A stretch of 64,000 nt of DNA from an uncultured Thermoguttaceae bacterium. Its GTDB lineage: Bacteria > Planctomycetota > Planctomycetia > Pirellulales > Thermoguttaceae. Made by a program: the position numbers and the translations under genes. The notes below the pieces were generated by a model that searched no databases, was not told where the DNA came from, and saw nothing but the letters and a program-made list of their open reading frames with translations. Location: assembly GCA_937951625.1 (NCBI GenBank), contig CALFBP010000018.1, forward strand, positions 62,001 to 126,000, given 5' to 3'. Of this stretch, positions 7,084-11,223 are shown one piece after another. Each line of letters opens with the position of its first letter. Within the stretch, counting starts at the first letter, position 1.

Positions 7084-8877
7084 CTATTTGCTCTCCAGCG
7101 TGATCACGCCATCCCAGTCTGGCGGGGGCGTGCGTTTGTGCTTAACGATGTACTCGGTCAGGAAATCGGCCACTTCGTCCTCGGCGGGGATGCGGTGGAG
7201 AAGCTCGTAAGCGTTCGACCAGCGGCCCGCCAGGAAAGCGTCCAGGGCCGCTTCGCTGATGGCCAGGTGCTCGTCGGTCAACAGCGGACACTCAGAGATC
7301 GGCGGCACGAGTTCGCTGACCTCGATGGCCGCATCCAACCCATAAGGCCGGACGACGGCCAGTCTCCGCACTCGGGCCACGTGGCGGGGCACCTGTTCGC
7401 GCACGGCGCGAGCCGTGCGGTCGTCCAAGAGGATCGGCGCCCGAAGGATCTTGGTCATGCCTTCGAGGCGAGAGGCGAGATTGACGACCGGCCCGAACAC
7501 CGTGACTTTCACGTGATCGACCGTGCCGATCTTGCCGGCGACGGCCCTGCCCGTGGCCACCCCGATCCCCGCCTGAAACCCAGCCAAAGGGCTGCTGGTC
7601 TGCCGGGCGGCGGAGTCGAACTCGCGACGGATGGCCAGCGCGGCCCGGCAGGTCCGCAGGATCGCGTCATCCTGCGGCAGCGGCCAACCCCAGAAGCCCA
7701 TGGCCGCGTCGCCCTGGAAATCGCCCACCACACCCCCCTGTTCGAGAATATGATGGGTCATTACTCCCAGGGCTTTGCTCACGCGGTTCAGCAGTTCCAG
7801 CAAACTATCGGCGTGGCGCTCGGAATGCCGGGAAAAGCCGCGGAGGTCGCAAAACAACACGGAGACCTCGGTCTCGCGGGGGGCGAGCACGACATCGGGA
7901 TCCTCGATCGAAAGGGTGTTGAGGACCACGGGCGAAAAGAACTGGCTGAGGCTGGCGTGCTGCCGGTTGAGCAATTGCATCTGCCGCAAGGAACCGAGCA
8001 TGGCCGCGACCAACTCGGTGAATTTCACGTCCTCGCGCAGGTCGCTGGGATCGGAGGAGGCTGGCATGGCGGGAAGCTCGACGTTGAAGCGGCCCGCCAC
8101 GTAAAGCACCCAGCCCCGCGAGGCTTCGCCGGGCACGGGAGTGCAAAAAGCCCAATCGAAATTGCCCCGCGCCGTGAACGGCTGGGAAGAGGCTTCCCGG
8201 CCGCGCCACACGTGGAGCACGCTTTGACGTTGGCGCAAGGCCTCCTCCATGAGCCGCTCGCTGGGACGGAAGTCGTCGCTGCTCATCAGACGTTGGTCCC
8301 AATGCATGGTCCGCACTCGGCCGCACCCTTGGGCAACGACGTCCCGTCCCATATCCAGATGGACCACCGCCGCCGCGTCGGCCCGCGGCAGGCCCGCCAG
8401 CAACATGCTCACCAAGCGCACGCACAACTCTTCTTCGCCCGTCGCCCCGGAAATCACCTCCGGCAACCGACTGAGGACCTCCATGCGGTAATCAGGATTT
8501 CGAAAGCGAACTTGCCGGAGGAATTCGGAGCTGAACGTCTGCTGTTGAAACGGTTGCGGGGCGTCGTCAGTGATTCGAGCCTCTTGATCGACCACCGTGA
8601 ACGTGGTTTCGCCGATCACGAAGTGCTCGCCCGGGGCAATGCGAAAACGCGTCGCTTCCCTGCCTTGAAAAAAGATGGGATTGCTGGCCGAGGGCAGGCA
8701 AACCACCTCCAAGGCGCCGTTTCTCCAAACCAGCTCCGCATGGCGTCGCGACACATGATGGTCCCAAGGAACCGCCCAGACGCCTGCCGAGCGGCCGAGG
8801 ATCACCGCCTGACCCTCCGGGAGCGGCCGCCGCCACCGCTGTTGCGAATGTCTGCCTTGGGCTACCAGATCGGCCAT
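7084..8877 (-). CDS. FHA-GAF domain class III nucleotide cyclase
   Basis: 597 aa with three recognisable parts. An FHA domain fills about residues 1-130 (ILGRS and VSRRHAELVW, the GR and SxxH phosphothreonine-binding motifs). A GAF-like domain follows at about 150-330. The class III cyclase domain covers about 340-560: VLFCDLRGFS near 343, GDFQGDAAMGFWG near 385 and GPVVNLASRLEG near 460. The two metal-binding aspartates and the Asn/Arg of the NxxxR motif are present. The Lys usual before the second Asp (KFIGD) is Asp here (GDFQGD), and the Asp usual in GDxVN is Pro (GPVVN), so the base-selecting pair is not canonical. There is no membrane segment. It lies 81 bases behind a Ser/Thr kinase gene; FHA domains bind phosphothreonine, so the kinase is a natural upstream partner (inference). 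Confidence 0.9.
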   Translation of the reverse strand: MADLVAQGRHSQQRWRRPLPEGQAVILGRSAGVWAVPWDHHVSRRHAELVWRNGALEVVCLPSASNPIFFQGREATRFRIAPGEHFVIGETTFTVVDQEARITDDAPQPFQQQTFSSEFLRQVRFRNPDYRMEVLSRLPEVISGATGEEELCVRLVSMLLAGLPRADAAAVVHLDMGRDVVAQGCGRVRTMHWDQRLMSSDDFRPSERLMEEALRQRQSVLHVWRGREASSQPFTARGNFDWAFCTPVPGEASRGWVLYVAGRFNVELPAMPASSDPSDLREDVKFTELVAAMLGSLRQMQLLNRQHASLSQFFSPVVLNTLSIEDPDVVLAPRETEVSVLFCDLRGFSRHSERHADSLLELLNRVSKALGVMTHHILEQGGVVGDFQGDAAMGFWGWPLPQDDAILRTCRAALAIRREFDSAARQTSSPLAGFQAGIGVATGRAVAGKIGTVDHVKVTVFGPVVNLASRLEGMTKILRAPILLDDRTARAVREQVPRHVARVRRLAVVRPYGLDAAIEVSELVPPISECPLLTDEHLAISEAALDAFLAGRWSNAYELLHRIPAEDEVADFLTEYIVKHKRTPPPDWDGVITLESK

Positions 8878-8958
8878 GACGACACGCGCTCAACGAAAAA
8901 CCGAAGCCCTGCCCGGGAACCCCCGGGAGCTTGTTTGTCGTGGGCCGGACGCGGAGAC

Positions 8959-11223
8959 TTATCCCGCTGATTCCGCCGCATCGTTTATCTTCGCCCCCGC
9001 CCGAGCACCCTGCCCGCCATCGTTAAGCAGTGGGGACTGCGCGGCGCTGGTCGGCGTGGTTGCGCTGGCCGAGCGATCGGGGACCGAGCTTGGGGTCAGC
9101 CAGCGTCTCAAGGGCGTCGCACCGTGGAGCATTCGCAGGGCCAGGCCCCACATGCCCAGCAGCACCACGACGATCATTCCCACGGCAACGGCCCCGGCCC
9201 GCAACAACTCGTTGCGCAGGGCGGCAAGCGCCGCACCGATCGTCGTATCATACGACTCCTGGACGATCACGGCCCAGCCCACGTCCTGCCCTGAAACACG
9301 GATCGGCTCAAGCCGGGCCAGCCAATGCCGATCGAAGTCGCGGCCCTCGGGTGTCCGGGCCATCGGGTCTTGATAATTCCGCATTTTCTCCGGCGTGATG
9401 GGAAGGTCTTCCCGGGCAAGGCGAAAGTCCTTCAAATGATCCGGGGGCCTCTGGTTTGCCTGAATGAAGGCATCGAAGAGCGGGTGTTGGAGAATCATCC
9501 CAGAGTGTTCTCCTGGCCGCAAATCGACGAGCACCGCTTGTTGGTCTTCGTCGCCCTCGAGCTTCACAAACCGCGCCGCCCGGACGGTCAACGCCACCAC
9601 GCCCAAAAACTTGTTCGAATCGGCGGGATCGTAGACCGGGGCCGAAATCGCCACGATCCAATACCGGCTCGCTTCGCTGCGAAAAACCGCCGAAAGCGTG
9701 GTGGTCTTCAAGTGATGGCCCGGCGGGGGACGCCAATCCCGCGCCTCATCAGACGGTCCACCGTGAAAAAAACTCCGCCACGCATAGTTCTTGCCGATGG
9801 TCTTCGACTCGGGCACGCGAACCGTGGAAAGGCCCTGGGCATCGCAAAAGAACCAGCTTGCCGCCTCGTACTCCTCTTCGCCGCCCTCGGTCCGTGGGGC
9901 CGGCATCCAAGCGGGAATGATCGCCTCGAATTGTTTCTGGAGCTTTTGACGCTGGTCGAGCTGCCGAAAACGCTCTCGAAGCGGCTCCAACTCTGCCTCA
10001 CTGCGACCTGGTTCGCTCAACGATTGTGCCAGCCTCTTGACCTCTGGCTGCTCCATCATGCTGGCGACGGCGCTAGCGAAATTGGCGGAACTGGCGACTT
10101 GCTCGACCGCGTCGCGGCGTCGCTGCAATTCCTTGGAGGCCGAACCGGCCACGCGCAAGGCGTTCAGGCGATTGTTTTCCAACGCCCGCGTCACCAAGTC
10201 GTTTTCAAAACGGCCCAGCGCCATGCTGAACCCGTGCCACGAAAAGGCCGCGACCACGGCCAATAAGAGCATCGGCCCGAGGGCCCCCACCACCAACATG
10301 GGGCGACGTTGCCTCCGCGCTGCTCTGGCGTCAAGGGCATCGAGCACCACTTGCACATTGGGGTAACGGCGCCGGGGATCCGCGGCCAAGCAACGGTCGA
10401 TGATCTCAGCCAACGCGCGATCCACGCCCGCCACCTGCCGATGACCGCTCGGCGGCGGGGCCTTGCGAATCCGGCGTCGATAGGCCGCCAACCGCTGTTC
10501 CAAATTCGGCAACAAATCGAGTTCGAGCAGCGCCTCCGGCGTCCTGTGAGGTGGATTGCCGGTCAACATGCAATAGGCCAGCGCGCCTAAGGCGTAAACG
10601 TCCCATCGGGCATCGGGCACGGCCTTGATGTCCGCCTGTTCCGGGGCCATGTAGAACAGGGTGCCTAAGGCCGGTATCTGCTCATGCGAGAGCCGCGACT
10701 GTCCGAAATCCGCCAGCCGTGGCTTTCCATCTTGGTCCAACAGGACGTTCGCCGGCTTCAGGTCGCAGTGCAATACCCCCTTCTCATGCGAATGAACCAG
10801 CCCAACGGCCACGTCCCGAAACAGCTCGACCGCCTCGGCTACGGGCAACGGGCCCTCTTGAAGCCGCTCGGCGAGCGACCCCCGCTCCATATATTCCATT
10901 ACGTAATAAGGAGGGTCGGCATCCCAGCCCACGCCGATCAATTGGACCACGTATCGGTCGGCAAACAGAAAGGCCAGCTTTTCGACCTCGCGGGCCAGAA
11001 GGGACCAATCCAGCCCACCTCCCCGGGTGTAGAACTTGACCGCCACCCGGCGTCCGGTGTTTTTTTCCACGGCAACCCAGACCTCCCCGTAGGCCCCCTC
11101 TCCCAGGAATCTTTCGAATTCATAGCCGGGGACCTGGGCGGGTGGGGTGCCGCGACGAACACTCAGTTGCTCGGAAAGGTGTCGTTCCGGATCGCCTTGC
11201 GGAAGCGTCAGATCGTTGCTCAT
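8959..11223 (-). CDS. transmembrane Ser/Thr protein kinase with extracytoplasmic Cache sensor
   Basis: 754 aa from the ATG at 11223; the frame stays open 21 codons further, but that extension looks like translated leader. The cytoplasmic kinase domain has the glycine loop GEGAYGEVW (41-49), VAVKFY, HCDLKPANVLL near 155, DFGQS and APEQ. The catalytic-loop Arg of HRD is Cys, so this is a non-RD kinase, not expected to depend on activation-loop phosphorylation. A membrane helix near 304-326 leads into an extracytoplasmic double-Cache-like domain (ISAPVYDPADSNKFLGVVAL), and a second helix near 671-697 returns to a short Pro/Ser-rich tail. It should sense a small extracellular ligand. A TATACT box (minus strand, 11231-11236) would start a nearly leaderless mRNA. 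The FHA-cyclase gene follows on the same strand. Confidence 0.92.
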   Translation of the reverse strand: MSNDLTLPQGDPERHLSEQLSVRRGTPPAQVPGYEFERFLGEGAYGEVWVAVEKNTGRRVAVKFYTRGGGLDWSLLAREVEKLAFLFADRYVVQLIGVGWDADPPYYVMEYMERGSLAERLQEGPLPVAEAVELFRDVAVGLVHSHEKGVLHCDLKPANVLLDQDGKPRLADFGQSRLSHEQIPALGTLFYMAPEQADIKAVPDARWDVYALGALAYCMLTGNPPHRTPEALLELDLLPNLEQRLAAYRRRIRKAPPPSGHRQVAGVDRALAEIIDRCLAADPRRRYPNVQVVLDALDARAARRQRRPMLVVGALGPMLLLAVVAAFSWHGFSMALGRFENDLVTRALENNRLNALRVAGSASKELQRRRDAVEQVASSANFASAVASMMEQPEVKRLAQSLSEPGRSEAELEPLRERFRQLDQRQKLQKQFEAIIPAWMPAPRTEGGEEEYEAASWFFCDAQGLSTVRVPESKTIGKNYAWRSFFHGGPSDEARDWRPPPGHHLKTTTLSAVFRSEASRYWIVAISAPVYDPADSNKFLGVVALTVRAARFVKLEGDEDQQAVLVDLRPGEHSGMILQHPLFDAFIQANQRPPDHLKDFRLAREDLPITPEKMRNYQDPMARTPEGRDFDRHWLARLEPIRVSGQDVGWAVIVQESYDTTIGAALAALRNELLRAGAVAVGMIVVVLLGMWGLALRMLHGATPLRRWLTPSSVPDRSASATTPTSAAQSPLLNDGGQGARAGAKINDAAESAG

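Follow-up and report, generated by a model that had tools for sequence, protein, structure and literature searches.

The window analyzed here is the whole stretch of 64,000 nucleotides from an uncultured Thermoguttaceae bacterium (contig CALFBP010000018.1, positions 62,001 to 126,000), and the subject is a pair of adjacent genes encoding a membrane Ser/Thr kinase and a nucleotidyl cyclase that begins with an FHA domain. Both genes are on the minus strand and are separated by 81 bases (8878-8958). These positions, the strand and the spacing had been given in an earlier note made from the letters alone, and all were exact in the sequence.

8959..11223, minus strand: gene P0001, sensor Ser/Thr kinase, 754 amino acids, ATG at 11223
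7084..8877, minus strand: gene P0002, FHA / GAF-like / class III nucleotidyl cyclase, 597 amino acids

The kinase start at 11223 was supported by the pattern M-x-x-D-x-T-x-x-Q at the starts of orthologues. A promoter search detected no sigma-70-type match. Orthologues of each protein were present in approximately 250 of 397 sampled genomes of the window's order, and hence the gene pair was far above chance. We consider it probable that this pair is a signaling relay of the class Planctomycetia, running from the kinase to the FHA cyclase.

A motif in the short, cytoplasmic N-terminal tail of the kinase, which is new relative to the first reading of the locus, points to the manner in which the two proteins may be connected.

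11197..11214, minus strand: D4-L-T6-L-P-Q9, candidate phosphothreonine (pThr) FHA-docking motif, from conservation and disorder
11206-11208, minus strand: codon of Thr6
11197-11199, minus strand: codon of Gln9

The pattern in the kinase tails was [D/E]-x-Thr6-x-x-Gln9, with Asp or Glu at Thr-2 in nearly all orthologues. In an unanchored alignment of 70 kinases, Thr6 was present in all 70 and Gln9 in 69, with entropies of 0 and 0.11 bits, respectively, and a mean of 2.2 bits for the remaining tail positions. Analysis of 109 distinct kinases from cyclase-bearing loci detected TxxQ in 107 (105 by script plus L237 and L239, in which the start was corrected by eye to a codon farther upstream), and the two exceptions were TxxL and TxxM; in shuffled tails, the frequency was 25/109. 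The motif was also read by eye in seven of seven kinases from a second order of the class, despite longer tails and unrelated flanks, at a roughly equal distance from a conserved Ser21. Among the other kinases of the window's genome, none was found to carry it at the N terminus, with two weak kinase loci left unparsed. Tail residues 1 to 10 were disordered in an AlphaFold2 model (predicted local distance difference test score [pLDDT], <50). FHA domains select the residue at pThr+3 (PMC5549992), and PknG recruits its FHA partner GarA/OdhI through an autophosphorylated Thr in a disordered N terminus (PMC8546545). By analogy, the P0001 tail is laid out like a pThr(+3) docking site for an FHA domain, comparable to the one that PknG offers to GarA/OdhI.

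The presumptive partner of this motif is the N-terminal domain of the cyclase.

8590..8808, minus strand: FHA domain, residues about 24 to 96, from Pfam FHA, with pThr-site residues R29, S43, H46 and N66

The FHA score in the window's protein was 21.6 bits (Pfam cutoff, 20.7), and an FHA match was detected in 23 of 26 orthologues. R29, S43, H46 and N66 were each conserved in 117/117 orthologous loci and G28 in 116/117. The first four correspond to R70, S85, H88 and N107 of Rad53, which hold the phosphothreonine peptide (PMC5549992); the Gly of the Rad53 site is G69. The cyclase FHA domain has the canonical pThr-site residues (Gly-Arg, Ser-x-x-His and Asn) and is predicted to bind phosphothreonine. 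The earlier note had named such residues as a check on its idea that the kinase recruits the cyclase by phosphorylation. At the sequence level they are present and invariant, and the idea is supported and gains a specific candidate site, the conserved Thr6, at which phosphorylation and binding would occur.

Inheritance of the two genes was examined in the 397 genomes of the order, using thresholds of E ≤ 1e-40 for the cyclase and E ≤ 1e-60 for the kinase. Orthologues of the cyclase were detected in 248 genomes and of the kinase in 258. Comparison of the lists by hand gave both genes in 237 genomes, the cyclase without the kinase in 11, the kinase without the cyclase in 21 and neither gene in 128; the equivalent numbers of genera were 99, 4, 3 and 42, the genomes being related and the counts hence not independent. 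Both genes were located in 105 genomes, which came from the best matches listed and were not a random sample, with an unlisted kinase end filled in by hand for six. Among these, 37 pairs were within 1.5 kb, 12 were farther apart on one contig and 56 were on different contigs. The kinase was upstream in 37/37 of the adjacent pairs and on the same strand in 36/37. The genes were also adjacent in G065, G094 and G099, which belong to another genus. In the second order, the main cyclase copy had an orthologous kinase upstream, at a distance of at most 3.4 kb, in 7/11 genomes examined; of the additional cyclase copies, 0/4 had one. The check on gene neighborhood proposed in the earlier note therefore gave adjacency in numerous relatives, which span two orders and no fewer than ten families, and co-inheritance even where the genes were unlinked. 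As adjacency recurs in the second order, the pairing is old; rearrangement has split the pair in much of the largest family, with co-inheritance kept. Shared ancestry alone, with two vertically inherited genes and no functional contact, would agree with the clustering of joint presence by lineage and with the distance between the genes in most of the largest family. This explanation is very improbable in view of the adjacency, with constant gene order, in many families and again in a second order and of the joint absence from 42/148 genera, compared with a single gene in 7.

The kinase itself has the catalytic residues of its family and belongs to the non-RD type.

10357..11124, minus strand: Hanks-type kinase domain, residues 34 to 289, Pfam Pkinase E 1.9e-41
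10762..10770, minus strand: HCD motif (non-RD kinase), from the sequence

On its sequence, P0001 is a Hanks-type Ser/Thr kinase with the Lys, alpha-C Glu, Asp, Asn and DFG residues, as K63, E81, D154, N159 and D172 were all present in the window's protein. Alignment of 70 orthologous kinases indicated that K63, D154, N159, D172 and E79 were invariant and that E81 was conserved in ≥90%. The closest solved structure to the kinase domain in Foldseek was Mycobacterium tuberculosis PknB with GarA (6i2p), and with the whole kinase as the query, kinase domains were the sole listed matches. The HCD that the earlier note had read in place of HRD is real, and Cys153 replaced the Arg in 70/70 orthologues. 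Having no Arg before the catalytic Asp, P0001 is classed by its residues outside the RD kinases. HCD was present in 2 of roughly 17 kinases of the window's genome (P0001 and one more) and so is not unique. The activation segment was short, and its sole conserved phosphorylatable residue was Thr188 of the P+1 loop. A non-RD motif and a short loop would fit a kinase that is not gated by activation-loop phosphorylation. The suggestion of control by the sensor rather than by the activation loop fits this invariant non-RD family and a loop without conserved phosphosites save Thr188; a non-RD sequence by itself is no proof of sensor control.

The remainder of the protein would contain the extracytoplasmic sensor.

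9214..10227, minus strand: extracytoplasmic dCache-like sensor domain, about residues 333 to 670, from a sub-threshold dCache_1 match and an AlphaFold2 model

Two hydrophobic helices (residues ~309 to 331 and ~671 to 695) flanked an ectodomain of ~340 residues, as expected of the membrane kinase with a Cache-like sensor that had been proposed, with one domain between the helices. The dCache_1 match to the window's ectodomain had an E value of 1.3e-4 and a score of 22.1 bits, which is under the Pfam cutoff of 45. Matches at E ≤ 0.01 were detected in 19 of 24 kinase orthologues, the best being 7e-8. In the AlphaFold2 model, a long helix carried the ectodomain, which was predicted confidently (mean pLDDT, 87.3) with a mixed alpha/beta fold. 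No match to the ectodomain was detected when the PDB was searched by sequence.

The output enzyme of the proposed relay would be the C-terminal part of P0002.

8092..8529, minus strand: GAF-like middle domain, residues about 117 to 262, from predicted helix/strand order only
7408..7881, minus strand: class III cyclase catalytic domain, residues about 333 to 490, Guanylate_cyc E 5.1e-12
7720..7722, minus strand: Asp386 at the adenine-reading Lys position, from alignment to OaPAC

Two parts of the FHA-GAF-cyclase architecture described in the earlier note, FHA and class III cyclase, stood; the GAF part is suggested by the predicted order of elements only, and no Pfam GAF match was obtained in 26 cyclase family members. 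Foldseek analysis of the catalytic domain listed PaCyaB (3r5g), SpCyaC (1wc1) and the guanylyl cyclase Cya2 (2w01), with TM(target) values of about 0.8. The metal ligands D344 and D390 and the transition-state residues N466 and R470 were invariant in 117 loci. These residues and the fold identify P0002 as a class III nucleotidyl cyclase with predicted activity. The window's genome yielded no PF00211 match other than P0002 and no further class III cyclase.

The base-reading pair is Lys/Asp in adenylyl cyclases and Glu plus a variable second residue in guanylyl cyclases (PMC4215837). When GGEVTKFIGD of OaPAC was aligned to GGVVGDFQGD of P0002, the Lys was matched by D386. Asp386 was present in 117/117 loci, and the second base-reading residue was Thr459 in most. 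The name 'adenylate cyclase' is unsafe because the base-reading Lys is replaced by this invariant Asp. The Glu of guanylyl cyclases is also replaced by Asp, although both are acidic, and Thr459 is within the range of guanylyl cyclases. The substrate is uncertain; GTP is a first guess, by analogy with the acidic residue at this position in guanylyl cyclases, and Asp386 could form a Glu-like pairing with guanine. A pyrimidine cyclic nucleotide, with a role in Pycsar-type immunity, might be proposed from the loss of the base-reading Lys and from a match of the PADLOC PycC profile to the catalytic domain (E 2.6e-17). Such a product is extremely improbable, as the match was confined to the shared class III fold, no effector-like gene adjoined the pair when neighboring open reading frames (ORFs) were read, and inheritance of the pair across the order looks vertical, which is not the pattern of mobile defense systems. 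Anti-phage defense, for which both kinase and PycC matches were obtained with PADLOC, was rejected as generic fold homology. A T459G change beside the invariant Asp386 was observed at loci L254, L256, L257, L258 and L253 in five kinase-less genomes (G080, G096, G134, G180 and G350). The base-reading pair of the guanylyl cyclase Cya2 is Glu/Gly, which the combination of Asp386 and T459G resembles. An E-G pair is mentioned in PMC4215837.

These features suggest a series of steps for a relay from the kinase to the cyclase. An outside ligand or condition would alter the Cache-like ectodomain of the kinase, as its architecture implies. The non-RD kinase, without an activation-loop gate, would autophosphorylate Thr6 of its own disordered tail, and pThr6-x-x-Gln9 would be bound by the cyclase FHA domain, a step suggested by the invariant FHA residues, the motif geometry and the co-inheritance. 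Docking may place the otherwise soluble enzyme at the membrane and/or align it as a dimer, the form that class III cyclases need. The cyclase, whose metal and transition-state residues are intact, would then make a cyclic nucleotide. The genes, their domains, the conserved residues, the co-inheritance, the adjacency and the tail motif are observed, and from these we infer the autophosphorylation of Thr6, FHA docking, the direction of control and the product. Control could run in reverse, such that FHA binding restrains the phosphorylated kinase or sequesters the cyclase and the signal turns the cyclase off. The sign of control is not fixed by the sequences, and MupFHA of Mycobacterium ulcerans binds PknQ and suppresses PknQ autophosphorylation (PMC4238996). 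Reverse control is nevertheless quite unlikely, being without sequence evidence here, and MupFHA contacts activation-loop residues that are not conserved Thr or Ser in this family.

Several observations weigh against a relay from kinase to FHA cyclase. Most genomes of the largest family have the two genes at unlinked sites, and the evidence for Cache and GAF domains is weak. No characterized precedent was found for the K-to-D swap, and no convincing conserved cyclic-nucleotide receptor was found among the two PF00027 proteins of the genome. The FHA site is intact even in genomes with the cyclase only, where the domain would therefore need another partner. The tail motif was absent from 11/21 kinase-only genomes and kept in 10/21. 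Most of these ten are fragmented or incomplete, with incompleteness unproved in each, and fragmented assemblies may have missed the cyclase. The 11 motif-less kinases formed two fully supported clades, both without the cyclase, one consisting of eight genomes of one genus and the other of three nested among motif- and cyclase-bearing kinases of another genus. With two informative events on the kinase tree, the sign test for motif loss against cyclase loss gave a p value of 0.5, and the association is suggestive but not statistically decisive. An alternative that draws on the same lineages is that the cyclase is an ordinary kinase substrate, that its FHA domain docks on another phosphoprotein or another phosphosite of the kinase and that Thr6 serves, for example, kinase self-regulation. 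The intact FHA site without an orthologous kinase and the Thr6 kept in ten kinase-only genomes indicate that the parts are separable. We regard this alternative as unlikely, since the motif has the pThr+3 form and is conserved with the cyclase in two orders and since both losses occurred in cyclase-less lineages.

A motif scan detected no unrelated kinase beside the cyclase in most loci in which the orthologue was missing; a distant HRD kinase adjoined the cyclase in three loci without a kinase orthologue. In the complete genome G350, which has the cyclase (locus L253) and no kinase orthologue, FHA domains 40 to 47% identical to that of the cyclase were present on three other large ORFs of 697, 972 and 1,481 codons (G350:C1 near 831941, 2348000 and 7920356), a pattern that would fit reuse of the FHA module.

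Ser/Thr kinases are numerous in planctomycetes, and to our knowledge a partner is known for very few of them. The proposed relay from P0001 to P0002 most resembles parts of known systems. Like PknG of actinobacteria, whose autophosphorylated tail Thr residues dock GarA/OdhI (PMC8546545), P0001 is a Hanks-type kinase with a Thr in a disordered N-terminal tail and an FHA partner; autophosphorylation and docking are predicted here. PknG has no such ectodomain, its kinase domain being flanked by TPR domains, and GarA/OdhI is a small FHA metabolic regulator and not a cyclase. PknQ and MupFHA are likewise a kinase and an FHA protein from one locus, with an interaction shown there (PMC4238996); MupFHA, however, is described as an FHA protein rather than a cyclase, and its contact was modeled at the PknQ activation loop and suppresses the kinase. 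A Ser/Thr kinase is coupled to a class III cyclase-like domain in Myxococcus Pkn2 and in the TOMM kinase/cyclase fusions (TIGR03903) (PMC1262709; NCBIfam), but these are single polypeptides, whereas two genes would here be joined through FHA. P0001 scored 49.3 bits against the TOMM cutoff of 705.75, over the kinase part only, and the base-reading positions of Pkn2 are Glu/Thr (PMC1262709) compared to Asp/Thr in P0002. PaCyaB, SpCyaC, Cya2 and OaPAC share the fold and the metal and transition-state residues of P0002, which differs from these stand-alone cyclases in its FHA and GAF-like N terminus and in Asp in place of Lys (cyclic AMP) or Glu (cyclic GMP). No description of an FHA-cyclase/kinase pair was found in the accessible literature, for which several searches were narrow. 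Each part is of a known kind; in the papers searched, no account was found of the combination, which includes a predicted docking site kept throughout a bacterial class.

The pathway is testable, as the prediction names a partner for the kinase, one phosphosite and an output enzyme together, and natural loss lineages serve as controls. If true, docking through an FHA domain, as in PknG, would be linked to a second messenger, and knowledge of how class III cyclases choose their substrate could be widened by the Asp386 enzyme. A broader reading, which we advance tentatively as possible but short of likely, is an ancestral planctomycete pathway in which a transmembrane Ser/Thr receptor kinase, using a single autophosphorylated Thr as an FHA plug, activates a soluble cyclase whose base specificity (Asp/Thr) is new. 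Such a pathway would be a bacterial two-gene counterpart of receptor-kinase-to-cyclase signaling.

Both PF00027 proteins were rejected as receptors. The CRP/FNR-type regulator (L270:1201-1893, minus strand) was head to head with a hydroxylamine reductase (hcp-like) gene (L270:1969-3408, plus strand) and, on inspection by eye, had no FGE...R motif of the usual kind. An ABC transporter ATPase fused to a cyclic nucleoside monophosphate-binding domain with FGE...R (L271:1456-2745, minus strand) was the sole plausible receptor seen in the genome, and its distribution (11/60 genomes) was unlike that of the cyclase. A variable low-complexity insertion was present in the middle domain of the cyclase, between the FHA and catalytic parts, at L021, L023, L024, L027 and L028. 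A contig (L065) with a cyclase 68% identical to that of the window was filed as Candidatus Nealsonbacteria, most likely through a binning error.

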